Origin: Bryum argenteum
Taxonomy: Eukaryota > Streptophyta > Bryopsida > Bryales > Bryaceae
Direction of reading: 5' to 3'
Assembly (NCBI GenBank): GCA_037043015.1
Contig: CM073329.1
Coordinates: forward strand, 3,860,648-3,924,647
Length of the DNA: 64,000 nt
The first letter of the stretch is position 1; each line of letters starts with the position of its first letter. The position numbers and the translations under genes were made by a program. Shown piece after piece: positions 3,200 through 28,803 of this stretch. A model generated the notes under the pieces. That model saw nothing but the letters and a program-made list of their open reading frames with translations. It did not search any database and was not told where the DNA came from.

Positions 3200-3204
3200 C
3201 AAGT

Positions 3205-3424: not shown

Positions 3425-4588
3425 TGAAGCTGAGCAACTTCGTAGCTTCACGGTGACCTGCGATTCGTGTTGGAGATGCGCAAGTGAATGTTGCGGCGAA
3501 GTGTTGGCGCCAAGGGAAGCAACAGCAGGCTGGGCTGCAGCGCATCTGAAGTCGCAGGAGCTCTCTCCCGAAATTCTAGGATCTGAGTCCCGCAACTCCA
3601 GAAACTCACACTAGTCACTAGTGCTGAAAGCCAATCACAGATCGTTAGCCGTAGTCGCAGAGAAGTCGATGTAGATCGAAAACCAACAGTGTCGGAAACC
3701 TGCCATCACGGTTAGCAGTAGACACATTCGAAGTCGTAGCAGATCGAAACCCGCCAGTGCCGATAACAAGCCAGCAGATAGGTAATCGTAGCAGCACGAA
3801 CAGAGCGTTAGATACAGAAGCATTTGAATTTTGAAGTCGATGTAGATCGAACTACACCTGTGCCGAAAGCCAGCCAACATTCTTAGTCGCAGACACAATC
3901 GATATAGTGGCAGATCGAAAACCGCCAGTGCCGTCAGCCAGCAGATCTGCAGTCGTAGCAACATTTGTAGTCGATGCAGAGTGCAGCCGCAACAACACCT
4001 CACATTAGCGCTTCATCCCTCACCTGAAATATAGAATCGGTTAGCACCCCTCGATAGAAACTATCTTCCTGCACCCCCGAATTCCACTCAACCCCCTGCC
4101 CACGAAAGAACAGCAAGCAATTGGGGACGATAGAGCAACAGGGAGCGTGCAAATCTCACCTGCACCGAAGCAGCCGCCAGCAGCACCGACCCCGGGGCCT
4201 CAAACTCACCAGTCAGCAGAGGACGCAGCAGCAACTCCAAGCTGTAGTGCCTCCGATGGCACACAAAGCCGCCTCCAGAACACCAGGTACGCAAATCACC
4301 TTCCTTCATTCTTCTCGTTGTTTGTCCGTTCTCAGCACCACACCAACATCATGCAACCCACCTCACGCCCATGAGACGAATGCTCTTGGGAGGGCCCCTG
4401 CTGATTTTGGTGATGGAAGTAGAAACCACTACCAACAACAGATTTGCTCACAATGCACAATCACTCAATCACGAAAGATACATAAGCAGGCTAACCTAAC
4501 AGATACAAAAAATTGCAAATTCAAACTATGTGAATCTTACCTCTACCATATGCAACACTCAAACTTGCCATGTACAGACCAATTGCAG
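3425..4588 (+). promoter_or_regulatory. LINE 5' UTR with imperfect tandem repeats
   Basis: No convincing protein starts in this stretch, although an open frame in phase with ORF1 extends back to 4121. Between about 3640 and 3990 the phrases GTCGATGTAGATCGAA, GCAGATCGAAAACCGCCAGTGCCG and GTCGTAGCA recur. Copies of GTCGATG start at 3665, 3836 and 3970, which gives periods of 171 and 134. Repeats of this kind in a LINE leader often carry the internal promoter, but that role is inferred only from position. Confidence 0.55.
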
Positions 4589-6263
4589 ATGGCAGCCTCC
4601 AGCTCCACACCAATGATGAACTCGCCCACAGTCACGCCACACGAGGAAATGGACATAGACGACAATGGACACAACAACAAACGCACCACCAGCAGTGACT
4701 CCTCCATCAAACAGAAGAAAGCACGAGGCAGCCAACAAATCCTCTGCATGCCACCTGCTCCGGACATTTGGCTCGGCTTCCAAACCCTGGAGACGCTCGC
4801 TTATGAGACAAGTATGCCTCTCATACCTCCTAAATCTATTGTTGATCTCATAGCTGCAGGTTGTCAAGAAGCAGAAGCAACGGAAATGCTCACAGCCAAG
4901 CATTCATTCCCGAGAGTAGCCCAGAAACTATGGCCTGTTACTAGGCCTGACAAAATAGAAGGACAGCATTACAATGTGACACAAATCCCCTTCGATGTAG
5001 AAACCGACGCAATCACAGGCCTTGCCCTAGATTACCACATCCTTGTCCACTTCGAGAAACCTAGAACCCCATTCACCCAAGACCAGATGATGAAAAAATT
5101 CCTCCATCGATTACAGTACATGAACATTGAGTTAGGGACAGACATTGCAGAACCCATAGCTATCCTCTGCCACGGCCCCAAAACAGACAGAACATGGTCA
5201 GGTATGGCCAAACTACACCTCAAACACCCGACAGCTGACGGATACGATCTCCTCCGGGGCACCAGACCGTTCATTCTCACATTAGACGATGGAAACCCTT
5301 ACCTCGCAAAAATTGCCAAAAGTTGGGACCCGTTAGCAACAAGCTCTCTCCTATCTATCAAACTTGCCAGCGAAAACCTCAGAGAATTAGATGCCCACAC
5401 CCTATTCCAAGCAATAGTTACAGACAGTTTCAAACGTGGCCAAGAATTCGAAATCACGCAAGTCTCGAAGAAAGTGGGAGATACCTTTGCTTTTCTCACA
5501 ACGACCTCCCCAGAGCAAGCAGACAAACTAAAACGTAGCAAAATACCCATCCTAGGAGAACTCGTGCAAGTCCCAGTCTCCAGCGGCGAACACCTCTCCA
5601 AAGACGAAGTCGCCAAACGAAACTGCCTCGTCCTCATCGCCAAGAACTTGAGCCTCACCAAATCAGCAGAAGAAATCAAGGCAATCCTACAGGAGCACTT
5701 CGGACCCAAGAATATCACGTCCATCTTCTTTCCAAGACTCAAGGGCACCAGCACACACAGTGGAATAGCTAACGTGGAATGCCTCAATGCAGCAGTATAC
5801 AAGCAGCACGTCAAGAAGTCAGCAAAGATCCTCAACAAATATGTTCAGTTCTTACCACACCCGAACAGCTTGGACGGCACAGCAAGGCCCGGAGACGATC
5901 TGCTAAAGAAGTATGGCTTCCTCGATGTCCACACAGCTCTCGCGGAGACTGCAAAACGCCCCTGCCGCTCCTCGCCACGACATCTCCCCGACACAACTCA
6001 CCACCATCGTCGAAACAGCAGTAGCTAAAGGTACTGCCGACCTGCGCAAAGAGATAAGACAAGAAATGGCGAGCCTCAAAGCCGAAATTAGCGCAGAAGC
6101 ACACCAGTACGCAGACACACTCCACAACGAACTCCATCAGGCGCTCACGAATCTAGAGCAGATTCTCGGGCAAAGCATGAAGGTGGTCCAGGGTATCACT
6201 GCCGGCACAGCAACGCGGCCAGCACTACCAGCGCCATCTACCCCAAGCTCGCAGCCAAACTAG
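4589..6263 (+). pseudogene. LINE ORF1 protein, RRM-like plus coiled coil, frameshifted
   Basis: The start at 4589 (MAASSSTPMM) is chosen because homology-like ordered sequence begins after an acidic, low-complexity N-terminus. Upstream Met codons in the same frame exist from 4121. The middle of the protein carries a segment of RRM type (NCLVLIAKNLSLTKSAEE to VQFLPHPNS, about nt 5620-5870), as in many LINE nucleic-acid-binding ORF1 proteins. I see no CCHC knuckle. Near 5950 the sensible frame moves from frame 2 to frame 3. The new frame encodes an Ala/Glu/Gln-rich helix suited to a coiled coil (TIVETAVAKG to LEQILGQSM) and stops at 6263. The frame change is most simply a single-base indel in this copy. 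Confidence 0.75.
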
Positions 6264-6301: not shown

Positions 6302-9199
6302 ATGCGACACAAGCTATCACTCTCTCTCGCATGCAGGAATACCGAGCAAACAGAAGCGCAAAAGAACGAAGGAAACGAAGGGCGTGAAGGAGCCAAGGAA
6401 TCGCAGGACAAAGTGCAGCCAAAAGCCCGCGAACTCCCTGACGTTCCCTCTCCCCCTCGATGGCCTAGGACACTGACAGCTGCCATCATGCAGCACTCAC
6501 CATCATCATTACTCCTTGGATTATCTCATCATATCGTATCAATGCTACATCACTCATTCAGTATGGCCAATTACCCCAGTTTAGAGCATTTTAGGTGCTC
6601 ACACAAAAAAATATATAAATATCGGTGTTTTATTTACTATATATATTATTACTGCATGGACAGATACCATATAAGACTCTGTAGATCTCTATACAAAAGA
6701 ATATATGGATTTTATTATTGTTATTACTATCGCTGTTTTTCTTTATTCTCCAATTGTATGTACAAAAAACATCTACATAACAAACACAAAACAAAATTTA
6801 ATCCAAAAAAATATACAAAACATATTCTTAGCATTACAAACGGGCACTTCATTTCAACAACACAAAAACAACAAAACAAACACACTAACTCTAAACAACA
6901 AAACCCAAACAAAGAATACATAGATGACCACAGAAATAAGAACCCCAAAATCTATCTATTAAATAACACAAATACAATGCCTATACGCAAAACTTTTACA
7001 CGGATGAACATAAGAAAAAAAGACACACATAACCAACACAAAAGCCACTTTAAAACATACCTCTTAGGTTTTCACACAACTAACCGTCAAAAACCCAAAA
7101 AAATAGATTCCTCCTATAAAACCAATACAACTAAAACACTCTCCAGCCCTATAAAGGAGATAACAACCAAGCACCTAAACAAACCCTACCAAAGAAACTA
7201 TAAAAACCATAAACCTCTACCAAAAATCGGCGTAAATACAATGCATGCACGTAATTTCCATAACAAAATGGCCACACAAAACTACAAACACTACTCACCA
7301 CATAACATAAATAACACAAACTGTTCTTACGCACAAACCAAACATCACAAACTCTCCGCCAAAACCCTAAATACACTCAAAATACATCACATTAAAACAC
7401 ACCCGACAAACAAAACAAAGATAATCAAAACAAACAGTATACACACAATAATCATTGTACAAATAAATAGAATCCATAGCTATATACTTATATACCTAAA
7501 AGCACTCAACAAGACATTGTACACACACCAATCTATAGTATATAGTTCCTATATGTATACACAACCAAGACACATATCAGAATTGCCCAAAACATACAAC
7601 AACACCCCTAGCACCAGAGTGACCAAAACACAGGGAACCCAACGAGCTCGGCTTCCCGGCCTCGCCAATACACAAACACATCAAAAATTAACCAAAAATC
7701 ATGACAACTTCAGAATTACCACAAAATCCGACCAATCACGCACGTACACACAAAATCAACCCAACACTCTCTTTACAAACAAAATACGACAACCACAAAA
7801 AGATAACATGCACACCCCCACAAACCTAAAAACCCACACACAATTATACCCAACAAAATCAAAAAACAAAACATACAAAGGCTATACCATACCAAACTAC
7901 CTCTTTCTACTCCTATGTGGAGATATTGAGTCCAACCCAGGACCAATGCCCAATGTCCTACATCTACATCCTGCACTACATAGAAGACATAGTAGGACCT
8001 ATTTTATACCTAGTACAATAGTACTCTACCCCGAATACAAACACCTAGCCACAACATTCTCACCCACCATAAAAACCACCTACCCTCAACACCAAAACAG
8101 TTGCAACCTATACCCACATCTCACAAGCTATATCCACAACCATCCACATTTTCCCCCTCCGAATATGCTCTACGCTCTCATAACCACCATAGGACCACAA
8201 ATAAACCTCTGTGAACAAACAATAACAACAAACCCTAATCCATACTGGACAACAACTCTACTAAACCAACTATCACGTCTCCCCAACGATCCTGCGAGAC
8301 ACCTAACTACTCCACACCCCTACACACAATTCCAACAAACCAACCAACACCTTATCACACCAACAAAATCCATCCACAAAGAACTTTATAAACACATCCT
8401 GAATCCAAACACCAACACCTCCATCCAAACACTTAAAACAACATTTCCATACTTACCCGAAACACTGTTAATTGAAGCTACAAGATGCAAAGAACACCTC
8501 CCAAAATACTCACACCCGCCCCCATTGCCACCAACCCACCCTATCACCCCTCAACCTCAACATACTACCCAATTAAACACAACAATATCCACATGGAACG
8601 CAAGCTCTCTAAACACGGCTCTCCCGAACCTTTACAAAATCGCACTAAATCTCCCGGCAATCATTACAGTACAAGAAACAAAACTCACCGCCAACAAATC
8701 TACAAAATATATCCAACGCATGTTACCACAATATAAACTAATTTTCAATAACACACATGCACTCACCCGATGCATCCAACAACGAATACCATACACCCCC
8801 GCACGAGGCGGCCTCCTCACTCTCATACACCAAAACTACGCTTTCCCGGGAAACATTACAAAAATCCCCACCCCAGCCAACATCTCACCGTACCTACAAA
8901 TTATTCACATAACAAACAAACCCCTCACCCCTTGGCTACTCATCCATTTATACATGCCTTCTCACCCAACAGACATAAGTCTAATCCCCATAATCCAACA
9001 AACAATCACCACCCACATACAAACATACCCCAACCATACCCATATTTTATGCGGAGACTTTAATAGAGACATTGCCTTAAACGGAAGACAGACCGCGCAC
9101 AACACCACACAACCACAAGACGAAGACCACCAATGGCGTACATACACGGATAACCTTAATCTCACATATATTCCCACAAACAGCCCATTCTCGAGACAA
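6302..9199 (+). CDS. LINE ORF2, 5' segment: leader, 2A peptide, APE endonuclease N-terminal part
   Basis: This is one open frame of more than 960 codons up to the CACTA insertion at 9200. The true start is uncertain (Met codons at 6302, 6488, 6542 and later). Residues 1 to about 530 are low complexity, rich in Lys, Asn, Thr, His and Tyr, with no recognised domain. A 2A peptide follows (7898-7945). From about nt 8580 an APE-type endonuclease is clear. It shows a TWNASSL start, then QETKL with the metal-binding Glu, a GGLL strand and LCGDFNRD with the catalytic Asp. The domain is cut after SRQ (9191-9199) and resumes at 37838 with GGYNYTETSLIDGYY and the SDHSPV motif. The endonuclease nicks the target to prime reverse transcription. 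Confidence 0.85.
7898..7945 (+). other. 2A ribosome-skipping peptide in LINE ORF2
   Basis: The codons read YLFLLLCGDIESNPGP, with Met next. The D-(V/I)-E-x-N-P-G-P signature is complete and is preceded by the usual Leu-rich helix and G. In known 2A peptides the ribosome fails to form the Gly-Pro bond (here between 7940-7942 and 7943-7945) and continues, giving two proteins. Here this would release the leader from an endonuclease-RT protein starting at Pro. 2A sequences are known in APE-type LINEs of trypanosomes and several invertebrates. Activity here is inferred from the motif. Confidence 0.85.
9197..9199. repeat. CACTA target-site duplication, left copy (CAA)
   Basis: CAA precedes CACTACAAG at 9200 and is repeated directly after the right terminus (37835-37837). 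Three-base duplications are diagnostic of CACTA/EnSpm transposons. Removing the element and one CAA rejoins the LINE frame exactly (SRQ-GGYNY). Confidence 0.92.
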
Positions 9200-9360
9200 C
9201 ACTACAAGAAAAATGGTGTATAAATGACTAAAAATTGACAACCAAATGTCCTGAATGATAGAGTGGGCAATTTTTTTTGGAATTCCTGTCAATTTGAATA
9301 AATTTTGAATTTTTGTTAATTTTTTGTTAAGGGTTTGACAAGCAAAACGCAAACTGTACA
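9200..9360. repeat. CACTA left terminal inverted repeat and subterminal motifs
   Basis: CACTACAAG opens the element. TTGACAACC lies at 9235-9243, and TGACAA variants continue to about 9345 (GTCAATTTG, TTTGACAAG). The mirror region at 37690-37834 holds the same motifs. Confidence 0.85.
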
Positions 9361-12065
9361 CGTGGAGATGTTCATAAGGTATTATCGCCGGTCTTTTTCT
9401 TCTTTCACCTTTTACTGCTCCTGCCTTGACGTTGATTAGTGATTACCGATCATTAATGTACAAGTGAGAATTCACTTAATCTTTACTGGAATTTTACTGT
9501 TTTGGGGACGTAACTTAAATTTCTGGTTTTCTACTTTAAGGGGGATTTGGATAAGGGTTATTGGCTAAATTTGGCTAGCACGTAATACTTTCTGCCTTTG
9601 CAGCCCCCATTTCAGTTAAAATTATCTATCCTTCATCGTAGACGTCGCATCTATAAACTTTCCTGCACCACGTCAGGATGATAATGGAAATGCAAATTTC
9701 TAGGGCAGGTAAAGGCAGTGCTTCGTAGCAGCTAGTAGAGGATGAAAAAGTGCCATTCCATTCCCCTCCCATCCCTGAAATTATCAATTGATACCCTCCC
9801 AAAGTCATTTTTTAAGAAATTGATTACAGAAATGAGGCCTGCAGATCCAAGTTACTGCAAGCGCATGCTGCTTGGTAATTTTATCCCATTAAATTAAAAA
9901 CTAGTGGGCTCCTTTACCCCTGCCCCAAGAACCGCTTATCCTCGCCTTCCGCGGCTGGTAAAGCTGTTACTGTGAAACATCCAACACATATGCAGCCTCT
10001 ATTGGAAATTCTAAAATAACATTCTAAAAGCATTGCTTTTGACACAGTAATTTTGCTTAAGAAATTTACTTAATTTAATAAGTACCTGTGAGAGGGCCCA
10101 GTACATTTGAATATGTAAAATACAGTATCGTATCATGGAATGTACTCTATCTGTTACCGTATTTGTACATTCCTTTTGCTCTGCACAGAACATACCGCTC
10201 TCTCCCTTAATAAGTACTGCACCCCTTCATACGTTTCATAACCTGCAATTCAACATACAATATCAGTGCTAATTCAACATACAACATTAGTGGCAATTTG
10301 TTACTGCATGTGAGGCATGGATGTGATGGAATGATAGACAAGATACTAATTTCGAACAGCCCACATACAAACCATGCTCCTGAGGTAATTGAGATATACC
10401 TCTCCTCGCAAACCGATTTGAAAATATGAACCAATTGTTCAAAGAACGCGGGTTCAGCTGCTCTTGGTCAACAAATGGATAGAAACATAATCCATGTTTC
10501 TCGTACCTCAAGTTCAATTTGAAGATAATAGCAGCTACATAGAAAACGTTTATCCATACACCTGCATGATTGAAGAGCACAAGAGTATATACTTTATAAC
10601 CCAGAGATATATGCAATACTACCTTAAAACATATTCGCTACCACAGTCTAAATCTATATAGAAACAAGACGCCAGTCGAAGAGGATAGAGTGCTGACTCG
10701 GTTGTGTCTGTAATGTTTATTGACATTAAGATGTATTCACACGACCACACTGAAGTGAACGAATCGCACGCTACTCTAGCATAATCAGATGAAGAACGCC
10801 CTCCGGGTGTTAGAAGATGTTACTGCTTCTTCTGCCATCAGACTTCCGACCGCTTTTTTTCTCTCAAACCGATATTCCTATGTCCGGTGCCACGTTTGCT
10901 GTTGGTCTCGTTCCTTAGTGCAGGTAGGACACTCATAAGCACGACCTGATAGACAAAACGTCTAAAATTTAGAACACATTGAAAAACTGTATTGTGCTGA
11001 CTTTTCCCACTCAATTCTTGAAGTATTTGATATGATACGCGCAATAACAAAGACTTATCCAGAACAAGCAAATTGACGAAGACAAACGTGAACAAATATT
11101 AAGACATACTTGATTGATTGATATTATTCGAATGTGGCTCGTAATTTCAATCACCACAATCCAGCCTTAATACCACCATGCAATTCTATTTTTGAAATCC
11201 TTGAGTTCTTTAGAAGGTAACGGTGATAACTTGATAATTCGGTTCTATTACGAGACAAACTAATTGGTATCGATGTAACGTATTTATTTGCCACGTTATG
11301 CTTTGCTAATTTATCGGCTACTACGTTAGTAGCATTGATTTATACAAAATTTCTCTTGATTTACCTTCGTACCTCCTTGAGATCGCTATAGCCAAAGCAA
11401 TGCATTCCGTGTCCAACTCAGAATGTGAAGAAGACGCAACTCCGTCCATGATTGAAGCTACCACTGAGAAACCTTACTGTTAGGTGTAATAGAAATTCAA
11501 TGTACCTGTAATGAAGAGTTTCGCAAGCGACGTTGTTCTGAAAAAACATTTCATAGGACTGAAGCAGATGACATCAAATTAACGTTTCCCCATCACATCA
11601 CTAAACTGAGTGTCAGAAACTGCTGTAAAAAATATTACACACCACATACTAGGTCAAATAAGCCTGTGAGATCGAAAGAAGGACCAAGGGCAGCTTACTT
11701 TTTAACTTCCTTATACTTCCCCTCTTCGAAGTTCATGACCCTTGGTATATCAGTAAATACAGAAATCCGCATATGCATAGATCTTTGTCGGGCGGTCACT
11801 GCAACACTCCGTTTCTGTAAAACCTTCCGCTAGTAAGAATTGCTTAAACTCCTCAGAGTGCGTGAACGCATTAAAGGACAAAAAGGTTCACGACTCTGAC
11901 CATGTAACCTCTGATGGGAGTGGTTTAGTCCATGATCGAAGAACCTCCTCAGAAATGCGAGGGAGCTACCTCTCAATCCTGCGACAGAAGTACCGGAGTA
12001 TTTCAGATACAGTTTTCATGTATCTCTAATCGGCCTTCTTCGTGATTCCTTCAAGCTTAGAATGT
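9361..12065. other. CACTA left arm, no confident gene
   Basis: This is A/T-rich sequence downstream of the transposase gene. On the minus strand, around 11980-11700, a degenerate reading (EEVLRSWTKPLPSEVTW, then TFLSFNAFTHSEEF) follows an acceptor-like TCTGTCGCAG. It may be a decayed final exon of the transposase, but it contains stops. The rest (9361-11690) shows no coding or repeat structure that I can support. Confidence 0.4.
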
Positions 12066-13381
12066 TTAGAATAAGCCTCTCACCTCCTCATTATCTGATT
12101 CGCGCGAAGAGCTGGACGTATCTTCTGCCGAAGTGCTTTCAAGATGTTGTGCTTCTTCCTCCTCGCTACTGTCCTCGCTGCTGTGAATCGATTCCTCCTC
12201 CCGAGGTCTGCGCCTGACATTTCTATTATCTCCTAAGTCGTTTTTGGCTGCCCTTCTACGAAGTTGGCCCCCGTTTCCCTCGTTTTCTTCATGAAAACTG
12301 TCTGCTGCCGATTCCTCACTGTTCTCAATGCTTTGATCAGACTCCCTAGCCTGCTGTGTGTTTGGAACGACTCGCCCACCACAGCCGCCGCCATGCCGCC
12401 CCCTTCTGCCACCACGGTTTCTACCACCGCCTCCACGACCTTGTCGTCTCACTATGTTTCTTTGATTCACTGGCTCAAGGTAAACATCAATGCCGGTTGC
12501 TGCTGGTGGTAGCTCCTCCTCCCCAACTTCCCGTTCTGGCCGTAACCCCTCAAAGTCCTCATCTTGCCCCATGTGAAACAACTCTGTATCGTCTTCACCC
12601 ATTGTGTTTGGTAATATCCGTTTCCCTCGCACTTCTTTTCGCAAGATCACTCTCCAACCGGGGGACTCTCTTGCGTTTGAATAGAACACCTGCTCACAGT
12701 GAATGGGAAACGCAAAACTATCTCTACAAACTGTACGGTATCTTCTTTCGTAATTTGCTAATGTGAAGCCCCACTTATCTCGTTTTATAGTTGCATTCTC
12801 TCCCCCTATAAATTGCCTTCACAAAGTCGCATACTAATACCACTAAGCAATGGCGTTTATAGTTAAGCTCTAATATTTCCTCTATGTGTCCTACATACTC
12901 TACGTCTGCTTGAACTTGGTTAGCATCACGGATGTTATTCCTGCACACTTATCTAAATGTTGCCGCAACTCCACCATTGCATGTTCGCAAGGGCCTCTCG
13001 GAGCTTAGCACTCGGAAATGGTTCCCATATGCATACATAGACTTAAACGCAGCCGCTACATGCAAAGGTCCCATTCTTTGTGTCTACTATCATCTGCTCT
13101 ACAACGACACCCTCTCGTTGGTCATGGCGTACCTCTTCTAGAACCCATTCTGAGAAGGTTGGTAATGACTGAAGCTCCCTAGGGAACGCAAAACTTGTTC
13201 TCCTTCCCCTTCGCCGAATCATTCGCGCTGTCTTGCTCTCTTTCATTTTCCCTCTCAATTCTCCGATCCTCGTACCTCCTACACAAAACAAGGAAGAATT
13301 CAGCCACCGAATCGGTAAAAATTGAATACCTGTCAGATTTATTATCCAAATGGTATTCAGCCCTACGGCAATATCCTTCAT
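12066..13381 (-). pseudogene. Transposase C-terminal exon(s): DUF4216-type domain, RGG box and acidic tail
   Basis: On the minus strand, frames joined across small shifts read LPTFSEWVLEEV, YAYGNHFRVLS, GGVAATFR, YVGHIEEILELNY and then VFYSNARESPGWRVILRKE. This is the order seen in the DUF4216 region that follows the TNP2 core. Frame changes lie near 13050 and 12785. Downstream (12066-12620) the protein becomes Arg/Gly-rich (QGRGGGGRNRGGRRGRHGGG), then strongly acidic and Ser-rich (SSEDSSEEEEAQ). A GAG|GTGAG donor near 12085 suggests that the final TAA-proximal codons are intronic and that another exon followed. Confidence 0.65.
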
Positions 13382-14103
13382 ACACCTTTCAAATTTGTAA
13401 TTATCTTATCTATTACAAGAGCAATTACGAACGACACTTCATTCACGCGGGCCCCTTACAAAGGAACTGATTTTCAATCTACCTATCTATCTTACAAGAG
13501 CGATTAGTTTATCAATCATGCTTATACCCAACTTTAACCGGCGTATGTGAAGACTCTAACTATTTGAATCATGAACATGGATACGTTGTTGCTAGAAAAT
13601 TGCATTCTAGGCTGTCCTATCACTATGAAAATCCGAGTCCAAATGATATTTTCAAGAACCTGCTTTATACTGATCAGGAAGTTATGCTTCACGCAGCCCT
13701 ATACAACCCATGTTACAATTCAAACATGCATTTCTGAAAAATAACTAAAAAATAGAAATTGCGTCGATTCACCCACCGCAGTATCATACACATTGGCTTC
13801 TGTAGTTAGGAGATAAAGGTTTTGGCTCCGGTGTTTACAGCAGAAACGTCAGTTTCAGGAATCTCAAGTAGGCCTAGACAAATGGCAAAAAATGAATCGG
13901 CAAATAACATCGAGTTCTGCTGGATTTCTACGCAGTTCAGCTTGCCGCATTTGCTGCAAATGCGAGCATAGAGCCGGAACTGATAGTTATAGTGTCAATG
14001 ACGAGGCAATCATAGATACTACAAAGGGACATGAAGAGTCCAACATAAAATGGCGATTGGTTTACTACGTGGTTAAACATAGACCCTCATACATACCACT
14101 TTG

Positions 14104-14325
14104 ACAGGACATCCCCCACGCTGGGACTTACCAAGCGTGGGGTTTACCCCGGCATGCAAGGGCGAGGGTACAACAACCCCGTGATTTTGAATTGTTGATT
14201 ACTACAATACCACCCCCTAGACTTATATGGGGTCTGTGATTCCAAATTTCATCACTAAAAAATTAAACAAGGGCCGCATGACCTTCAGTTTGAGAGCAGG
14301 GGTAAATGGGCCGCAAGCCTTATAC
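14104..14325. repeat. Partial MITE-like copy inside a transposase intron
   Basis: GACAGGACATCCCCCACGCTG at the left end is followed by GGGACTTACCAAGCGTGGGG. Shared phrases then run to GGGCCGCA and AGCAGGGGTAAATGGG. This matches the left end and interior of the 55607-55877 element, but the right inverted repeat is missing here. Confidence 0.65.
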
Positions 14326-14466
14326 ACTCTATCCAATGAGCAGATTCGGTTCTGATATCAAACCATGAAAACGAACATTCACGCTAAAGCCAGCGACTCT
14401 ATCCAATGAGCAGATTCGGGTTTTGATATCAAACCACGAAAACGAACATTCACGCTAAAGCCAGCA
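14326..14466. repeat. 70-bp tandem duplication
   Basis: Two near-identical units of about 70 bp lie head to tail. Each starts ACTCTATCCAATGAGCAGAT and ends CACGCTAAAGCCAGC (14326-14395 and 14396-14466). They lie in an intron of the CACTA transposase gene. Confidence 0.9.
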
Positions 14467-14811
14467 ACCCCGGCTTCTACCGCTATACGCAGGTAAATTG
14501 AACATGTGGCTAAGAATTTGGCTGATAAACAAGGAAGCACTGCTGTAATGTCTACCTTGCTAGTTGATGGAGACAACCATGGCTCATGGGCTGGCTTCAC
14601 CCTTCCTACATGGATGTACTACATAGGGCCCCTCACCTGAAATTATTATGGAGAATATTACAAATACTTGTTGTTTGACCCCTTGAAGGCCTACAGTGTT
14701 GATCAAAGGCGGCAAATGCCATCTTTGACAAACAACAACAGTTACAGGTTCGAAGGATATTACAATGATTTTGGTAAACATTAGGATATAGTATCGCGTA
14801 ACTACTAAAAG

Positions 14812-14927
14812 GGAAAATTCTTTGTTGAGATAGACAAAGACAAAACAAATAAAATATTACCTCTACAAGGGAAACTAAAATTCTTTGTTGAGATAGACAA
14901 AGACAAAACAAATAAAATATTACCTCC
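14812..14927. repeat. Tandem duplication carrying a copied splice donor
   Basis: The block AAATTCTTTGTTGAGATAG through AAATATTACCTC occurs twice, at about 14814-14863 and 14878-14926. On the minus strand each copy begins with GAGGTAATATT, the donor site at the end of the DUF4218 exon. The intron therefore holds a spare donor. Confidence 0.8.
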
Positions 14928-15820
14928 TGTAAGGCTCCATGTGCTCGGTGTTGTTTAGCACAAACTCGTGTATCAACTTCAAAAAGCCTGAAGTCATGAC
15001 ACGGTCTCTTCGTGCACCCTCCAGTATCTCATCGTACATTGCCGGTTCCTCCTTGTCATCCCATGCACGCTTTGTTGTTGGAGTATACTGCAACAGATAC
15101 TCATTCAAAAATCCCACAGATTCTTCTCTAAGGTAACCATTAGCCATACTCCCCTCAGGTTTCGCCTTATTTTTGACGAATCCTTTTAATCCTTTCATGT
15201 ATCTCTCAAAGGGATACATCCATCGTGTGTGGACTGGACCGCAAATGAACAACTCCTCTACTAAGTGAATAGGGAGATGCATCATTATCACGAACACAGA
15301 CGGTGGCAATTCTTTTTCTAAAGAGCATATGGTTTCAGCTACTTCTTCTAGCATTGTTGCCTTTTGATTTACATCTACAACTTTTGCACAAAGGTTTCTA
15401 AATAATCATTTGACGCCAGCACACAGATCCAACAACCCTATGATTTCCTACATTCCTCAAACACAAAGGAATCACTTGTTGGAGTAATATGTGGAAATCA
15501 TGAGTTTTTAACCCCCTTAACTTCCCGTCTGAAATTCGTGAGCTTAGGGGTCCGACATAACCCGAGGGGAATTTTAGTTTCCTTAAGGTGGTGAGGAAAA
15601 TGGAACGCTCATCTTTTTATTGAGAACATAAGGTGCGTCCGGCTTAAAATGGCTTCGTCCATCCGGGTTCCGTTGCAGGTGAAGGTGTGGCCTGATGCCT
15701 CTGACCCGCATGTCCTCCCTTGATTTATTATCATCTTTCTCGCCAAACAATATCTTCAATAAATTTTCGCAAATATTTTTTTCGCAGTGCATTGTGTCCA
15801 ATGTGTGCCTTGTTGGAAGT
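14920..15820 (-). pseudogene. Transposase exon block: DMDV-like region and DUF4218
   Basis: On the minus strand this reads MDTMHCEKNICENLLKILFG at about 15801. After a frame change it reads LRKLKFPSGYVGPLS and LRGLKTHDFHILLQQVIPLC. It then enters a long open stretch (15354-14920) with LPIHLVEELFICGPVHTRW, then YPFERYMKGLKGFVKNKA and EGSMANGYLREE. These are the conserved signatures of the DUF4218 domain that follows TNP2 in plant CACTA transposases. The frame changes between 15360 and 15600 show decay. The 3' end uses the GAGGTAATA donor described at 14920. Confidence 0.75.
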
Positions 15821-17346
15821 TCCTACAATGAAAAAGATAAAAATTAGCATCCTTAGAAGTTCCAGAACTACCTCTTCATTCGAAGGATTAATAAAAACTA
15901 TATGCATGTGTCATCATCATCTAGACAAAGATACAGAATAGCTTTAAACATAAAGCACGACTATAATTCCCTGGTTCACAAAAAGCACGACTATAATTCA
16001 AAGATACAGAATAGCTTTAAACAGAAATATCAAAATTCGAAAGGCTTTAAGCATAAAAGAAAATGCGTACGGAAGCACGACTATAATTCCCTGTTTCACA
16101 AAAAGCAAAGACATGAAAGGGCTAATAACAAAACTTAATAACTGTCAAGCTACTAATGAAGAACTCTTTACATTCTAAGCTTTCTACATGATACTCAGAG
16201 CCACCGCTTTTGTTATAAACTTATGCATAAGTAGCTCAACCAGAACGAATTTAAAATATAAAACCTTTCAAAAATAAAAATCATAACAATAAACCATACA
16301 GAATTGAGAAATTCTGAAATAGAGAAAGCTATTAGAAAGCTCTCAGAAATTTGACATGCACTGAACATCTCGAAATAAATATGAACCCTGTTAGGGAGGA
16401 CAAAACAGCGTGAAATCCCCACCAAAATTCAGAATGAGATAAACAGTGCAAACCATAAAAAGAATAAGTAGACTGTCCTGTAAGCACCAATTTTAGCGAC
16501 CTTGCCTATATTTAGCAGTAGTAAAATCAAAATGCAAACATGATCACATTCGAAATAGGTTTTAACGAGGATTGAAAAATTTGCAACATGTATTTTGCAT
16601 TCATGAATTTTATACAGAAGTTCAAACTGCTAAGTAAGATTTGACCCAAATGCGCACTCTACAAATGAGGTACATCTGTCCTTTCACAATCAATAGAATT
16701 TGGAGAGGGCGCTTTTGGGTCGGGGGCGCTTTTTGGACAGTCTAACAGGGAACATCATTTTTGGAAGCAAACGGTGGATTTATTCCATAGAAGGGAATAA
16801 CTCAAAATTTCTCATTGAGCACTAAACTAAGTTTTTACCTCTACAAGCAATTACTTAGCCTAGGTAATACGGTGGCGGATATAAATTTCCACAAATATAG
16901 GTAAACCGAAGTACAGCACCTCTTTACAGTTGTGAATAAAACTTTAAACTCCTATACTGGAACTACTCCGATACGACAACCCACATAGTGTAATTTGAAG
17001 TTACTACAACCAATGGAGATTTAAAGGTGAAGCTTTCTATCGAAATATAAAATTGCCATCCAAAAGTAATGAATCATGGGGAAATTGCCATATTTTGATG
17101 TTGCGAATTTTAGTAGTAACATAAGATGTCATAATTTTAGAGTAAGCAAGTAGCCGTTATTGTTTTATTTCTCCCATTCTATTCGTTATCTTATATAGCG
17201 CAGATCCCAAAAGTCCCAGACGATGTCATAAATTCGTGAATTTTCTGATCATTTCGTGATTGTCGTTACCATCATGGACTCACGGCATATCAGATGGGTA
17301 CTTCTACGAGAAAACAGAAATTTGAGCTCTAAGGTCCTACAAAGAT
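15820..17346. other. Transposase intron, A/T-rich with short internal repeats
   Basis: There is no gene here. Between about 15935 and 16105 the phrase AAGCACGACTATAATTC occurs three times, together with GATACAGAATAGCTTTAAAC twice. Near 16710 GGGCGCTTTT is repeated (GGGCGCTTTTGGGTCGGGGG, then CGCTTTTTGG). The remainder has no structure that I can support. Confidence 0.5.
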
Positions 17347-18160
17347 TCAGGTATGCTTAAACAAATCTCTTACCTCCCAATAAGGAAGTTGAAAAAGAAT
17401 ACTTATTCTTTTAACTCCAGTTTTTTTAACTGGGTCATGTGCTGAATTTGGGCGGCCTCCGAGTTGTAGAAAACTCTCCCTCCACGCCCCTCGCAATCTG
17501 ACTGTTAAACCGGATTGTCTGCCGGGTGAGGGTTCGTGGTTGGGTAGCCCATTGAATGCGGCACGAGCTACCCTCCAGTGGTGGTCCTCTTTCAGCCACC
17601 TTCGATTGCCTAGGAAAACCGTCTTGTGCGCCTCCCTTGAGTGCTCTGCAAATGTGCCCTCCCCACATACAGGACATCCCGCATACCCTTTCCCAGTTTG
17701 TCCAGATATTAGAGTATACGCAGGAAAATCATGTATCGTCCAAATTAACATGCCCCGCATTCTAAAGCTTCTCTTTGGGACCGGTGTGGTTCGACATGTC
17801 TATGGCACTCACACCCACCCAAAGCTTCTTCAACTCACGAACAAGAGGTTCTAAAAACACGTCTATTGTATTTTCGGATGGAGAGTTAGGCCCCGGTATG
17901 ATCATACTTAAACTAATAAAGAATCTCTTAGTTAGCAAGTATGGTGGAAGATTGTAGAACACAATCATAACCGGCCAAACAGAATGCTTTGAGGATTGCA
18001 GACTATGGGGATTCACACCATCTAAAGCTAGCCCCATTCTTACGTTTCTTGATTGCCCACTAAAGCTAGGGAATTTTTGTTGAATAAAACTCCACTGTTC
18101 ACTATCAACAACCGATCTCATTTTGCTATCCTGTGATGAATTTAAACTATGCCAACGCAT
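17347..18160 (-). pseudogene. Transposase TNP2 core segment
   Basis: Two adjoining minus-strand open stretches (18160-17762 and 17760-17347) read continuously in family order. They contain RMGLALDGVNPHSLQSSKHS, WPVMIVFYNLPPYL, MIIPGPNSPSENTIDVFLEP and LVRELKKLWVGV, then MRGMLIWTIHDFPAYTLISG, a GCPVCGEGTF Cys pair and NRRWLKEDHHWR. These are hallmark strings of the TNP2 transposase family of CACTA elements. A one-codon frame junction near 17761 suggests a small indel. This region carries the catalytic core. Confidence 0.85.
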
Positions 18161-18173
18161 ATGCTTCGCTATT

Positions 18174-18873
18174 TCAGGCGTGGAACATCCTTCGCAACCT
18201 TCTAATTAAGGAGAAATAACGAAGTACACGAATTGGCACAGTTCTCGAACCGGGAATATACCTAGACTTATGGCAAACTGGACATTCCTCTAAGTCTGAC
18301 TTTTCCATCCAATACAGAGTACGGCCACACTCACAACAATGAATGGTCTCATGAGATAATCCTAGCTTCATTAGCATAGTTTTCATCTCATAAGACGATT
18401 TAGGACATGTGTTGTCCTTAGGCAATACATCGTATTTGAGGAACGTCAAAATTTCATCTAAGCAATGGTGGCTGAACGAAAACAGTGTGCACAAGGACAT
18501 AAGTACGATGCTAAACTGTAACCTGGTGGTTTCAGAACCTGGATACAGTGGCTCCATAGCCTCTTGGAGTAGCGCTTCAACGACTGGTGTAACATCAGGC
18601 TCTTCTTCCTCAGATGACATGTCTTCAAAATCGAGCATGTCGTCCTCCACCTCTCTGAATTGCCCGTGAATCTCATCCGCTCTCGCGAAGTAATTCTCCG
18701 CCATCTCCTCAAGGTTGATGTCTGTGTTTGGAGGGGCAGGCTCAAAAGCTGCGTAATCTTGTGCATCCAGGAAGACGTCCTCTTCTATGTTGTTATTCGC
18801 TGGTATTTGGGGATGACCGTCGAGTTCTCCTTCTTCCCCTTGGGTATTATTATGCTGGTGGGGGTTTCTCTGC
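18174..18873 (-). pseudogene. Transposase exon with acidic N-terminus and zinc-ribbon
   Basis: The exon begins after the acceptor TTGTCTTGCAG. It encodes an Asp/Glu-rich stretch, a helical region, and a Cys cluster ETIHCCECGRTLYWMEKSD ... CPVCHKSRY followed by PIRVLRYFSLIRRLRRMF. The C-x2-C / C-x2-C ribbon and the LRYF-L-RL motif are standard immediately upstream of the TNP2 core. Copy B begins only 52 bp upstream, within the preceding intron. Confidence 0.85.
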
Positions 18874-18919
18874 AAGACAATGTAAAATATCAGGTATTTT
18901 AGATTTATAGGTGAACACT

Positions 18920-18924
18920 AGGTG
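18920..18924. repeat. Target-site duplication of gypsy copy B, left (AGGTG)
   Basis: AGGTG directly abuts the TGTTAG of the LTR and is repeated at 28799-28803 after the other LTR. A 5-bp duplication is standard for Ty3/gypsy integration. Confidence 0.95.
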
Positions 18925-19708
18925 TGTTAGCCGGGGTCTTCGATGGAGGTGTCCGAGGTGTAAGGAACGGGACTGTATGGGTCAGCAAATGGGTAAAGAC
19001 CGGGGCTCGGGGTTTAAATCACAGTTAGCCCCGGGTCCGGGTAGGTCGTTTGACTCGAGACCGTAATCACTCAGTGATTAGGCCGGGTAAGTCAATCCAG
19101 TGAGCTCGGGGTAGTACTCTGTCGGCCCGAGTCCCAGGGTTATGGTGCCTTGCGGGTTTCTCTCCTGTGTGCGACTCCACGGCCGCGGCGTGTGTGTGTG
19201 TGTGTGTTCGCTGCAGTGTAGGTCCGTCGACGGGGAGAACATCCACGAGGAGAGGGCCTTTTCAACCACGTAGCGTGCACTGAGACACAACAATCCCAAC
19301 CCAGATTTCCACGGTGCCACGGCGATTGCAAGATGTAGACCACAGGAGTTTAGAAATAGGGAAGGAGGGAGAGAGGGATAAGCACAAGGTTAGAAGTAGG
19401 GGAACTGGACTGAGTCCTGTTTGCATTGAATTGTGAACGCCCAAGGTACAAAGATCGCAAGCATGCGTTGTGACTATCACGACATTCGTGCACTACAGAG
19501 ACTGGCTAATGTGTAAATCCTCCTCTATTTATAATAAAACCTAATTCTTGCGTTGTTCTTCGGCCTTAACTCCCTGCGCCCCTGCTCTCGATCCTCGTGG
19601 TCCTCTGGTCACTGCCTCGGCCTCGAGCCCCGTGGTTGTTTAATTCCTGGTCTTCCCCCGGGGTGTTGGTCTTCGGTAATGATACCCGTGGCACCGAGGC
19701 GGGTAACA
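18925..19708 (-). repeat. 3' LTR of gypsy copy B (784 bp)
   Basis: Identical to the right LTR except for three substitutions (about 19099, 19112 and 19688). A TATA box lies at 19526-19533 on the minus strand (TATAAATA), followed by the presumed transcription start. A (TG)n run (about 19190-19207) lies in U5. Confidence 0.95.
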
Positions 19709-19712
19709 TTTT

Positions 19713-19724
19713 GCCCTCTTTTTC
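19713..19724 (-). other. Polypurine tract of gypsy copy B
   Basis: On the minus strand GAAAAAGAGGGC, followed by AAAA, abuts the TG of the 3' LTR. This is the expected plus-strand primer position. Confidence 0.75.
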
Positions 19725-19753
19725 AGAGTGCAATTCGTCCCCGAATTGCTGTG

Positions 19754-22130
19754 TCAACGCCGCGAGGGGGCGGGCCTCCGATTCGGTCGGGCTTGCTCTC
19801 GAGGAAGCTGGCGACCGCTGCGAGGGGGTTCGTCCCCATTGTAAATCCGCCGAAGTGCCTCGGCCACGGCCCGATGCACCAGCACATGGTTGCCACGGAA
19901 GTTGAGTGTGTGGGTGTACACATCGAACACCGTGCCTCCTAACGTCCGGTTACAGGCCGGACATTGTCGCCCCTGTGCTTCGGGGTCTGCGTAATGTGCC
20001 GCTAGGTCGGGGTGTTCGTGGAAGTACTTCAATACGAAGTGCATCGACTCTGTGGCCTCGTCTCCATCCTCGTCCGCATTCTCGATATTCCATCCCTCGT
20101 GCTCCTCCTGTTGGAGGATGACTTGCCTGTGTCGAGCCAAGGACTGAGGAGAAGGCCGTGTGCGCAACGGGGAAAACACCGGCAGAGGATTTGAGGGTGT
20201 CATGGGGGACTCGGCCCTTTTTGGCCAGGGGTAAGTGCCATCCGCATTTTGTCTGACCGGGGACTCGTATTGTGTCGGGGGGGACAGAATGGGGAGGTGA
20301 TACTGCGGGGAGCTTACCGAGGCATGCGGTCGTGGTGATTGGTGTGGTGTTTGCTCGTGGTCGGTAAACCCCTCGGGTATTTCTACTCTCTCCTCCCCTA
20401 TTTGTGTTGAGAATTGGTACATTCCTTCCCCGGAGTCAGCTTCCATATCCCTGTCCTCGGTTTGTGCGCGGGTGTCCTCCTCCTGTGCGTCGTAATCCTC
20501 CGTGGGGGTGTGTTTTCGGAATTGTGTCAACTCCGGCTCATCCTGCATGTGTGTTTCCTCCTCATCTTCCCCGAGGAAGGGCTCCCCCTGGCTGCCCCAG
20601 TTGTTGTCGGAGATCTCCAGATCCAGGGTGATGAGTGCATCGCTCGTGCACTGATCCAGGAACGAGGCCGGGGGTTCTTCGAGCGTGGGGGGTGTGGCTC
20701 GCAGCAGTTGGTAGGCTGCTGTGGCTATCACCCGGGCCGCATGGTTTGTCCATGCCATTTTGTTTGCCTCAAAATTTTCGCGGGCACTGTCCACCTCCTG
20801 GCGCTGTCGTTGTATCACTTCCACGTCCAAGGTGCTGGGTGGCGGGGCCGTGGACTTGAGAGCCAGTTCCTCGGTGAGTGCTTTACACTGTGCCACGAGT
20901 TCGGTGGTTTGTCGGTCGAGCCGCTCAATCCTCTCACGGTCCCTGGCACTCTGGTCTTCGAAGGACTTGGATCTTTCCGTGGCGGCCTGTAACTCCAAGT
21001 CCCTCGTGTTGAGCTGATTTTGCAGGGTTGTTACCTGCCCCTGCAGCTGCTCCGTGCGAAGCTGAGCCTCCAGCTTGTACGCCTCCAAGGTTTTGTGTGC
21101 CGCGGCCTGGGTGGTCTGCACAAGTTGGGCGGTGTGTCGCTTGTGTCGAGTCTCCCATTCCCTGTATTTAGCCGTGGCGGTCTGCTGCTGTTGCTCTGTG
21201 ACGTGGAGAAAACTGAGGATGTCTTCCATGCAGGTCTCCATGGTTCGCTTCTGTGCTTCGAATGCCGTGGTGCGGGGACCGAACTGTGTGGCTGTGGAGG
21301 TGCTGGCCACCTCCATGGGACCCCCTTCAATGACCTCGGCCTCCTCGGTGCGTGGCCTCTTGCCTCTGTGGGGTGGCGTGATGCTTGGTTTTGTGGCCTC
21401 CGCTAACTCCCGTTGTATCTCCAGGAAGGTGCCCATGGCCCACGGATGGTGATTAGCTCTGTGATAGTCTAAAAAGTGGCCGATGAATTGCGTGAGGAAC
21501 GGGGCTATGGGGCTTTCGTATGTATCGCTGTGTACGTGCCCCTGAATTTGGCTCACCGCGTTGCCATCCACGAGCTTGCCCCAGTTGATTTTCTCTCCCC
21601 GGCCCGCCATGACACACAGTGCGATTTGATTCGGGTGTACTGCGTTGCAATCGTTCCTGAAAAATATTTGGCTGAGTATACCCCGAATCCTGCCAAACCA
21701 AGGGTCGGGCATGTTGGGGTTGCTGCGTGTAATCTCATAGACATCGAACTTGCCATCCCCCCCGCGCCGGGTACCCGTGGGTGTAAACCGTGGTGTCCGG
21801 TTGTGGCAGACTGCTGCTGTGCTGCGACCAGCTTGTCACCCCTGTGCCGTCCCATCCAAAAAATTGGTAGAGGTACCTCGGGGAGTATTGTACGAGGACC
21901 CCTTCCACGACCCCGGCCACGTCCCGGTTGCTGGGATCCTCCAACTGTCTTTCCCGCATCGAGGAAATGAACGCGCGGCAGCGACTGAGGTCAATGTTTT
22001 CGCGGAGGTTATTGGCGTAGCGCAACAACCCTGCCTGGGAGAGCCACTCCATGTCCGGGTACTTCTTCCACTCCGCAATCTGCCTGGGGATGTACAAGGG
22101 TTTGCGATCCCGGGGAGCACCGCGCGCCAT
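19754..22130 (-). CDS. Gypsy copy B ORF3, coiled-coil and Cys/His-motif protein (frame break at a homopolymer)
   Basis: It starts at MARGAPRDRKPLYIPRQIAE (22130) and ends RRPAPSRR at 19754. Copy A encodes the same protein, strongly conserved. The first part (about 130 residues) is globular and includes LYQFFGWDGTGVTSW. A run of seven C on the plus strand (21757-21763) shifts the frame relative to copy A, and the sequence continues with NPDPWFGRIRG-type homology to the end. The middle is a long coiled coil (TEQQQQTATAKYREWE through DRERIERLDRQTTELV), then a Pro-rich linker. The C-terminus has ESMHFVLKYFHEHPDLAAHY and C-x2-C-x13-H-x7-H, a possible single zinc-binding motif. No membrane segments were seen, so it does not look like an envelope protein. 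Function unknown. Confidence 0.8.
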
Positions 22131-23482
22131 AGCTGCTGCGACCTGCAACGGGGTTCGGACACTAGAAAGAACAGAGGTGCAAAGGGGCGAGGTGTGTGAG
22201 ATCGCCGCGCCGCAACAAAACTTGAGCTGTGGCGAAGGAGGTGAGAGAATGAGGTTGAGCCCCGGGGATCCCCTCGGTATGTAAGCTCGCACTGACTGCT
22301 GAGAGAGAGGAGTGGAAATGATGGAGTTGGCCGTGGCGGCGGCTCCTTTTAAAAGATACAGTGATGATGCCTCGGGGGTCGATTTTGGTGATGATGCCTC
22401 GGGCGGATCCAGGGGGGTAATTATGGCATTGATTGGCCACTCCCCGAGACTGTGACCCCCTGGGTTTTTGCCATGGGCAACATGGATGTGGCTGATGTAT
22501 GCGCATGGTATGGGCATTATCATGGCCGAGGCGGGGGGGGCTCCTTGTGCGGCTAGGGCCCATGGATTGTCCACGTGGTTTCCTGCCGAGGCTTCCCTGT
22601 GCTCTTGTTTTTTGGTGTCTGCGTTTGTGTGCTTGTGTACGTCCCCCCGAGTTTCTGCCTGGTGTCCCCTGATGCCATGGTGATTCGTTCCCTCGGCTTG
22701 TGTGTCCATGGTGTCTGCGGAAGATGTTTTTTCGTTTGCGGGATCCTTGGTGTGTGCATCTCCGTCACGTGCCTCGGCTGCCAATGTGGTGTGTATATCT
22801 TGTAAACTAAGAGCTGTCGTAAGTTGTGGTGTTAGAGTATGGTATTGCTTTAGTTTTGCAGCGTTGACTATCGTGGCGTGGGGATCATAATTTGTGTTGT
22901 TGACAAGGAGGACGGTATTGTTGGGCAGGGCTAATTGTACTGTATATGGGCCGTGCCATATAGACTCAAATTTAGATTTTTTGAGTTTAGGATCGCGTGG
23001 GCACCAGAGGACCTGGTCACCTTTCTGAAACAATCGCGGGGGCTGCGTGCCTTGGAAGTGACGGATGGCCAAGGCTTGCTTGTGCAGGATGTGCGATGTG
23101 GCCAATGCCCGCAGTTCCTCAAGGTGGTGAAGATCTCCGATGCGGGCTGCGAGCACCCTGTGAGGAGTGTAATCCCTTGGCTGTAATGTCTGGAATGTCG
23201 GCACAATGTATTCCGTGGGTAATAAAGGTTGGGTGCCATAAACCATTTCAAACGGGCTAGCGTTTGTGGCGGTTTTAATGGCTACTCGGTATGCCCAGAG
23301 TGCAGCTGGTAGGCAATCGTCCCAATCGGTTTGGTTAGCATGGACGAATCTTTTCAGCATATTGATCAATGTTTTATTCGTGGATTCGGCTTGTCCATTT
23401 CCCTGGGGGTAATAGACAGTGCTGGTTCGATGCTTGATAACATGGTTGTCGAGGAGGTCTTGGATGACAGTGTTCACAAAAT
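22131..23482 (-). pseudogene. Gypsy copy B integrase C-terminal part and linker, out of frame with gag-pol
   Basis: Homology resumes immediately after the break with [14 protein letters not shown] and the catalytic Glu motif YYPQGNGQAESTNK. It continues through ALWAYRVAIKTATN and the GPY module (FESIWHGPYTVQLAL). A linker of about 220 residues, rich in Asp, Thr, Ala and His, then runs without any stop into the Met of ORF3 at 22130, in the same frame. The D-D-E triad would be complete if the one-base gap near 23485 were absent. The lesion is therefore recent or could be a sequencing/assembly error. Confidence 0.85.
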
Positions 23483-27922: not shown

Positions 27923-27994
27923 CTTTTCTTCCCTTCAGGCTCGTGGCCGGGTATCTCTTCTCTTTTCTCTCTTTTTCTTACCTCAGCACTCCAT

Positions 27995-28011
27995 CCCCAG
28001 CATGGTCGCCA
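27995..28011 (-). other. Primer-binding site of gypsy copy B
   Basis: On the minus strand TTT and then TGGCGACCATGCTGGGG follow the 5' LTR. It begins TGG, as needed to pair with a tRNA CCA end. It resembles the TGGCGCCGTTGCCGGGG site of Athila/Tat-type plant elements but with several mismatches. The primer tRNA is not assigned with confidence. Confidence 0.55.
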
Positions 28012-28014
28012 AAA

Positions 28015-28798
28015 TGTTAGCCGGGGTCTTCGATGGAGGTGTCCGAGGTGTAAGGAACGGGACTGTATGGGTCAGCAAATGGGTAAAGACCGGGGCTCGG
28101 GGTTTAAATCACAGTTAGCCCCGGGTCCGGGTAGGTCGTTTGACTCGAGACCGTAATCACTCAGTGATTAGGCCGGGTAAGTCAATCCGGTGAGCTCGGG
28201 GCAGTACTCTGTCGGCCCGAGTCCCAGGGTTATGGTGCCTTGCGGGTTTCTCTCCTGTGTGCGACTCCACGGCCGCGGCGTGTGTGTGTGTGTGTGTTCG
28301 CTGCAGTGTAGGTCCGTCGACGGGGAGAACATCCACGAGGAGAGGGCCTTTTCAACCACGTAGCGTGCACTGAGACACAACAATCCCAACCCAGATTTCC
28401 ACGGTGCCACGGCGATTGCAAGATGTAGACCACAGGAGTTTAGAAATAGGGAAGGAGGGAGAGAGGGATAAGCACAAGGTTAGAAGTAGGGGAACTGGAC
28501 TGAGTCCTGTTTGCATTGAATTGTGAACGCCCAAGGTACAAAGATCGCAAGCATGCGTTGTGACTATCACGACATTCGTGCACTACAGAGACTGGCTAAT
28601 GTGTAAATCCTCCTCTATTTATAATAAAACCTAATTCTTGCGTTGTTCTTCGGCCTTAACTCCCTGCGCCCCTGCTCTCGATCCTCGTGGTCCTCTGGTC
28701 ACTGCCTCGGCCTCGAGCCCCGTGGTTGTTTAATTCCTGGTCTTCCCCCGGGGTGTTGGTCTTCGGTAATGATACCCTTGGCACCGAGGCGGGTAACA
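28015..28798 (-). repeat. 5' LTR of gypsy copy B (784 bp)
   Basis: This is the promoter-bearing LTR for the minus-strand element, with TATAAATA at 28616-28623 on the minus strand. The three differences from the partner LTR lie at about 28189, 28202 and 28778. Confidence 0.95.
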
Positions 28799-28803
28799 AG
28801 GTG
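28799..28803. repeat. Target-site duplication of gypsy copy B, right (AGGTG)
   Basis: Matches 18920-18924 exactly. Confidence 0.95.

Follow-up and report, generated by a model that had tools for sequence, protein, structure and literature searches.

The window, by which we mean the whole stretch of 64,000 nucleotides of Bryum argenteum DNA analyzed here, harbors a LINE retrotransposon with two open reading frames (ORF1 and ORF2) on the forward strand, the second of which is split by a CACTA (En/Spm) element (Table 1). The apparent end of ORF2 at position 9223 is not real, because the CACTA insertion interrupts the reading frame at 9200 and ORF2 resumes on the far side of it, at 37838-43596. 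The ends of the inserted element read CACTACAAG and CTTGTAGTG, and the insertion is accompanied by a 3-bp duplication (CAA). An endonuclease of the exo_endo_phos fold and a reverse transcriptase (RT) are encoded in a single ORF with ORF1 upstream, which places the element among the APE-type LINEs. The host genome bears the marks of a green plant, broadly understood: the LEAFY SAM domain has five matches in the assembly (best 1.1e-28) against none in 14 control genomes, LEAFY not being known outside the streptophytes; four units of TTTAGGG match 1221 times against 0 for the control, the places listed being interstitial; and the CACTA element carries DUF4218.

Table 1. Features of the LINE and of the elements nested in it (positions of the window).
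Feature	Position	Strand	Remarks
LINE ORF1, in two frames here (4121-5908, 5913-6263)	4121..6263	+	Homologous ORF1 in other loci
ORF2 leader (547 residues), first ATG past the ORF1 stop through G of NPG	6302..7942	+	Open frame
GC-rich 22-nt element, 1 mismatch here	7645..7666	+	Recurs in LINE leaders
2A/StopGo peptide YLFLLLCGDIESNPGP	7898..7945	+	Core 7922-7945
Predicted break in YLFLLLCGDIESNPGP	Between G (7940-7942) and P (7943-7945)	+	StopGo rule NPG-P
PAD (post-2A domain), begins MPNxLxxHPxxHxRR	7946..8584	+	Conserved in copies
APE-type endonuclease, N-terminal part, interrupted	8585..9199	+	Exo_endo_phos weak; 95% identity to L042
CACTA (En/Spm) element splitting ORF2	9200..37834	.	28,635 bases; TSD CAA 9197-9199, 37835-37837
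DUF4218 ORF within the CACTA element	14920-15354		
Ty3/gypsy element nested in the CACTA element	23474-27922		
ORF2 resumed: endonuclease end, linker, RT	37838..40417	+	RVT_1 39071-39862, 1e-28
ORF2 C-terminal part: PCIF1-like, RNase H	40561..43596	+	PCIF1-like 41350-41724; RNase H 42130-42558

For comparison we used ten-kilobase stretches around 20 sites of the 2A core described below (the L-numbered loci), which show a LINE with ORF1 and ORF2. ORF1 lies upstream of the 2A in 15 of the 16 other loci examined, L033 being the one from which it is absent; it gave no Pfam match above the cut-off, and its RRM-like and coiled-coil character was judged by eye. The Exo_endo_phos match in the window (E 0.0004) is below the Pfam cut-off, and the stretch concerned is 95% identical to the endonuclease of L042, while the window matches to PCIF1_WW and RNase H reach 1.7e-10 and 4.7e-13, respectively. 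The open ORF2 of L042 (2335 residues) matches RVT_1 at 1.5e-28 and PCIF1_WW at 9.7e-11, with Exo_endo_phos below the cut-off, and that of L031 (2286 residues, also open) matches RVT_1 at 4.6e-28, with PCIF1_WW (6.4e-6) and Exo_endo_phos both below the Pfam cut-off. The nearest solved RTs, in a ranking of matches and not a tree, are of the R2 type (2.3e-27), ahead of L1 ORF2p (4.2e-15). The L1 clade is the usual LINE clade in plants.

The C-terminal PCIF1-like domain (PCIF1_WW, PF12237) was matched in all eight relatives aligned and is listed for 22 of the best 120 of 166 proteins retrieved with the RT, several of which also carry RVT_1 and RNase H; among those same 120 it is found on none of the named Haematococcus or Pleodorina proteins. 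Its profile had no match in the PDB, and hence the assignment rests on Pfam. The catalytic motif of the PCIF1 methyltransferase is NPPF. A motif of this type was not seen in the domain, where the place that we take to correspond to it, set by eye, reads HPHN, HPHD or HPYN in the alignment, and no claim of an active methyltransferase is made. One LINE-like protein, P0023, has a Pfam list that includes PCIF1_WW, RVT_1 and a C5 DNA methyltransferase (PF00145).

Within ORF2, positions 7898-7945 read YLFLLLCGDIESNPGP; the next codon is ATG, and Met-Pro-Asn follows in frame. The first-pass annotation had proposed that a complete 2A signature precedes a methionine here, and the translation of the window bears this out: the core is DIESNPGP, which conforms to the 2A class pattern (D/G/C/N)(V/I)ExNPGP, and the window has a single match to the core pattern GAYNTNGARNNNAAYCCNGGNCC (7922-7944), against 0 expected from 100 shuffles. 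The residues FLLLCG ahead of the core fit, by eye, the described L-rich class of StopGo sequences, which PMC12846837 characterizes by an upstream stretch rich in L, a final (A/S/C)G, D at position 12 and S at position 15. The 2A lies within a longer ORF, in frame and with protein parts on either side. Its frame is open from 6092 to 9223 and has its first ATG at 6302, which gives 547 residues up to the G of NPG, in good agreement with the leader of about 500 residues that had been predicted. The 2A was also said to lie upstream of the endonuclease, and so it does, but not directly before it, as a post-2A domain of about 210 residues (PAD), with no Pfam family match, lies between the two.

A degenerate form of the core has 168 matches in the whole assembly (258.8 Mb), against 1 for the reversed pattern used as control; the positions of the first 100 of the 168 were listed. 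In order to have copies not picked by the motif, the genome was searched with PAD only, 150 of 339 candidates being scored, which makes the number of copies a lower bound. Of these matches, 132 align from PAD residue 10 or earlier and 112 were examined for the core, the other 20 being left unread (3 of the 20 are known not to match the core exactly). The core is intact in 91 of the 112 copies, decayed but recognizable in 18 and lacking in 3. For the portion of the genome covered by the list of core positions, a core directly adjoins PAD in 65 of 80 copies, by a pattern in which the second residue may be L, M or F as well, and the 47 further PAD copies, window included, comprise 26 with an intact core, 18 with a changed but recognizable one (DVKPNPGP and DIESNLGP, for example) and 3 without. 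Among the 44 recognizable cores of this latter group, to which no motif filter was applied, 37 retain G and 41 the last P, and all four glycine and all four proline codons are in use, indicating that the peptide has been kept and the DNA has not. The 21 non-intact copies of the 112 would fit the decay of old insertions, with CpG-type changes of E to K and stop codons. The sites behind the codon-position counts within the core were selected with a pattern that forbids most amino-acid changes; the counts show synonymous variety and not constraint, the unfiltered copies being the fair test.

The best 120 of 211 hits of a profile search and the best 120 of 166 hits of an RT search together comprise 234 different proteins, of which 86 match PAD and 49 have at least eight residues upstream of it. 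In these 49 relatives the core is canonical in 33, bears Q or H in place of E in 10 (Q at position 14 in 5 of the 49), is otherwise changed in 5 and is lacking in 1. The motif is thus conserved across divergent copies, in the genome as in the database, and so passes the sequence-based refutation test that the first-pass annotation had set. In an alignment of 45 relatives with at least 16 upstream residues each, one of them shifted two residues by hand, D, N and the last P are conserved in 100%, G in 98%, the middle P in 96% and E in 80%, and the core pattern of the relatives has x free, V/I and E/Q/H tolerated and N-P-G-P nearly fixed. Further upstream, position -12 is L in 91% of the sequences and position -9 is G in 43 of the 45, but a measure of our own speaks against a uniformly L-rich context, as only 23 of 45 have at least three hydrophobic residues among the six before the core. 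StopGo sequences with H at position 14 are described as more than 95% active, and those with Q as partly active, in PMC12846837. Among the 86 PAD proteins, 12 begin precisely with the Met that follows NPGP, 2 begin inside PAD and 23 miss the PAD start; the 12 may reflect a start choice of the gene caller and are not counted as support.

Named relatives among the best 120 of 166 RT hits include the green algae Haematococcus lacustris and Pleodorina starrii. The sequence GD[VI]E[PA]NPGP is present in 3 of 21 Haematococcus proteins (P0043, P0081 and P0087, all from H. lacustris), and the other 18, some of them partial, have no core. In P0043 the 2A directly precedes a Josephin (deubiquitinase) domain identified by Pfam, and in P0087 it precedes the same sequence; the Pleodorina protein has a Josephin domain and no 2A core.

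Some copies in the genome contain the 2A and PAD more than once. Two cores lie in one open frame in L046 (288 codons apart) and in L048 (242 codons apart), and two in-phase cores lie in broken frames in L049 and L050, at distances of 510 and 477 codons. Among the core matches listed, pairs are spaced by 723-727 bases at four places, by 846-864 at two, by 1530-1536 at two and by 1431 at one, and a single open frame of 2489 residues (G000:C5:2174294-2179252) carries three PAD copies, with two intact cores and one DIEPNTGP. The upstream units repeat PAD, often in shortened or decayed form, and in L046, L049 and L050 they are the 5' parts of family-A elements joined to family-B elements. We read the serial units as the product of a 5' module exchange made tolerable by the 2A. 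In the database, relatives P0131, P0149 and P0200 have two sites each, Q and H variants counted, separated by 44-159 residues.

The leader evolves in a manner different from that of PAD. Between the window and L042, differences at codon positions 1, 2 and 3 number 67, 68 and 75 over 378 leader codons, versus 12, 7 and 30 over the 210 codons of PAD, and the change of pattern sets in upstream of about codon -60. No marked third-position excess is seen in the leader in any of the 17 pairs listed, which share members and are not independent. Given the equal change at all three codon positions, the leader drifts about as fast as the third positions of PAD; in the pairs tested, it changes as if its amino acids did not matter. 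Its reading frame was assessed over 400 leader codons at 37 sites, picked by their intact core, where 422 stops fall in the 2A frame, versus 914 and 759 in the other two frames. The 2A frame is free of stops at 8 of the 37 sites, against none of the 74 other-frame readings, and over the 400 codons of these eight sites each of the other frames contains 12-62 stops. Open runs of at least 200 codons occur at 22 of 37 sites when the 2A frame is read, compared with 1 of 74 other-frame readings, which supports the leader postulated ahead of the enzyme as a frame kept open upstream of the 2A. At 29 of the 37 sites at least one stop in the 2A frame falls within the 400 leader codons, and most copies therefore look dead. 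In composition, A and C abound in the leader and T and G are scarce. A stop simulation for the window versus L042 gave 7.0 expected stops with a minimum of 2 in 300 trials, the minimum being 0 in 14 of 17 pairs, and counts as weak evidence because its pairs were required to have open leaders. Open leaders of 427-903 residues occur also in the relatives P0128, P0133, P0149, P0152 and P0193, the longest (903) in P0193.

A part of the leader is conserved at the nucleotide level, as judged from a 22-nt element (AGCTCGGCCTCCCGGCCTCGCC) that has 122 matches in the genome at no more than one mismatch, against 0 for the control. Ninety of the 100 listed places are on the same strand as, and near, a listed PAD or 2A, and 10 have no listed neighbor; 84 of the 90 are situated 186-1303 bases upstream (35 at 244-340 and 20 at 562-631) and 6 downstream of the nearest site. 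In 28 distinct copies with up to three mismatches, all 22 positions are at least 89% conserved, third codon positions included. The phase of the element is such that it reads RARPPGLA, or nearly so, in 17 of 17 copies with an open frame. Several relatives, compared as protein sequences only, have SA[YS]RPRHK near residue -99, consistent with a reading of these bases in a different frame. Known RNA families gave no match in positions 3000-9199 of the window up to an E of 5. Folding of the element is modest, with z between -0.7 and -2.2 in five copies, and a hairpin is not claimed.

The junction of ORF1 and ORF2 was examined in 11 copies, with the ORF1 ends of L031, L036, L044 and L047 set by extending the frame past the last matching stretch. 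L044 (ATGAATAA) and L047 (ATGATTAG) have an AUG that overlaps the ORF1 stop and belongs to the 2A frame; in L036 the overlapping AUG is in another frame. In the window and L037, 38 bases separate the ORF1 stop from the next AUG, which is in the 2A frame and open, and in L031, L034, L038, L042, L048 and L049 no AUG close to the ORF1 stop leads into an uninterrupted frame up to the 2A. Of the 11 copies, 7 have a 2A frame that begins downstream of the ORF1 stop; in the window, L037, L044 and L047 it begins before that stop.

On these grounds we consider it probable, at roughly 80%, that the peptide is a functional StopGo sequence in ORF2 of a green-lineage APE-type LINE, where it would free the enzyme from a disposable translated leader. 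Ribosomes would reinitiate at the ORF1 stop codon or shortly past it and so enter ORF2, read the long leader, fail to join the G and the P of NPG-P and release the leader, and translation would then go on as a separate protein beginning Pro-Met-Pro-Asn and comprising PAD, the endonuclease, the RT, the PCIF1-like domain and RNase H. Reinitiation near the ORF1 stop would imply that the leader is largely inter-ORF sequence, which has to be read without necessarily yielding a useful protein. Whatever the starting point of translation, the 2A would fix where the catalytic protein begins, and 5' ends could be swapped or stacked in frame. We infer skipping activity and its efficiency, the reinitiation route and the benefit of leader disposal from the sequences compared here. 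Less favorable to this reading are the 21 of 112 copies whose core is not intact, the leader stops at 29 of 37 sites that had themselves been picked by an intact core, the hydrophobic context seen in only 23 of 45 relatives, the uneven arrangement of ORF1 stop and ORF2 AUG among copies, the overlap of ORF1 and the 2A frame in four of them and the nucleotide-level conservation of the 22-nt element. The parts of the first-pass annotation that sequence can address, namely a 2A in a plant LINE with a leader ahead of an endonuclease-RT protein, hold; its proposal that skipping controls the amount or location of the catalytic part is not borne out, the evidence pointing rather to leader disposal. 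It is also conceivable, with odds that we put just short of even, that the leader is selected only to stay open since the 2A disposes of it, and that the 2A acts as a 'late N-terminus', whereby translation may start anywhere upstream and 5' ends may be exchanged or stacked between families, the serial 2A-PAD units being a record of such exchanges.

Alternatively, skipping might be partial, with the uncleaved fusion targeted elsewhere (membrane, nucleus or particle) and the cleaved form acting as free enzyme, a dual targeting as in the sea-urchin NLRs, for which PMC4981915 offers a precedent. Hydrophobic starts in the leaders of L044 and L047 and in the AUG frame of L036 are in line with this, as is the Q at position 14 in five of the 49 relatives, reported as partly active in PMC12846837, but the leaders of the window, L037 and L031 have no hydrophobic start and no amino-acid constraint is seen on the leader in the pairs tested, which makes such targeting rather improbable. 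Ribosomes might also enter the 2A frame by frameshifting from ORF1, the 2A then freeing the enzyme from an ORF1-leader fusion. This was kept as a rival because the final part of ORF1 and the 2A frame share about 170, 500, 120 and 40 bases in the window, L037, L044 and L047, respectively; the relative frame of ORF1, however, is 2 in the former pair and 1 in the latter, and all four copies have an AUG at or just past the ORF1 stop, so that we deem a frameshift unlikely.

That the leader is never translated, with ORF2 starting near the 2A and the open frame a by-product of composition, would accord with the abundance of A and C, the scarcity of T and G and the unconstrained amino acids in the pairs tested. 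Against it stand the eight stop-free sites, with their 12-62 stops per 400 codons in each other frame, and the leaders of 427-903 residues that are open in five database relatives, and we regard an untranslated leader as quite unlikely. A structural role for the peptide without skipping, for instance as a hydrophobic strand of PAD, could explain why it adjoins a domain that is itself conserved, but seems very improbable given that the pattern kept is specifically the StopGo core, with N-P-G-P nearly fixed, and that the same core precedes an unrelated Josephin domain in P0043 (by Pfam) and P0087 (by shared sequence). Chance or an assembly artefact can be practically dismissed, with no match expected in the window, 168 matches versus 1 in the genome and the motif present in database proteins.

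The occurrence of a 2A in a LINE is, as a kind, known: work by Heras in 2006 and Odon in 2013 reportedly described 2A sequences in APE-type LINEs of trypanosomes (L1Tc) and of multicellular animals. The present element is likewise an APE-type LINE with an in-frame 2A, and differs from those of trypanosomes and animals in belonging to the green lineage, in having PAD between the 2A and the endonuclease and a leader of hundreds of codons, and in its serial 2A-PAD units and C-terminal PCIF1-like and RNase H domains. In L1Tc the 2A lies near the N-terminus. The green-algal LINE proteins from Haematococcus lacustris and Pleodorina starrii have RTs 31-46% identical, and the 2A of P0043 and P0087 precedes a Josephin domain, whereas that of the present LINE precedes PAD. 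RNA-virus 2A sequences (FMDV and others) have the same core, D[VI]ExNPGP, and, by eye, the same L-rich upstream class with D at position 12 and S at position 15, whereas here the sequence resides in a retrotransposon of a plant genome. Picornaviruses also have several NPGP sites in one frame, some 50-150 residues apart according to PMC11512398, compared with 242-510 codons here. The 2A signal sequences of sea-urchin NLRs are also non-viral, and PMC4981915 reports a sea-urchin 2A to be active in plant cells, those of N. benthamiana; as described there, they belong to a host gene with a signal peptide, in contrast to the present 2A, which sits in a mobile element and follows a leader free of constraint.

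No natural use by plant viruses was found in a 2026 survey that covers nearly 10,000 viral StopGo sites and describes the mechanism as rare in cells (PMC12846837). A search of the full-text literature other than Odon 2013 and Rao 2025 (Cell Rep 44:115822) found no report of a natural 2A in plants or green algae, which agrees, over that same literature, with the initial remark that no standard description exists for land plants. As far as we have seen, the plant and green-algal setting, the combination with PAD and the C-terminal domains, a leader that is open yet unconstrained, and the serial units are new.

The natural Q and H variants of the relatives form part of an evolved plant set of 2A sequences for expression tools. 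The LINE leaders, in turn, make testable the question of whether selection can keep a coding frame open and yet leave its amino acids free to drift. Finally, the 168 matches to the core in a plant genome, and its conservation beside a LINE enzyme, suggest that plant ribosomes encounter natural StopGo sites.
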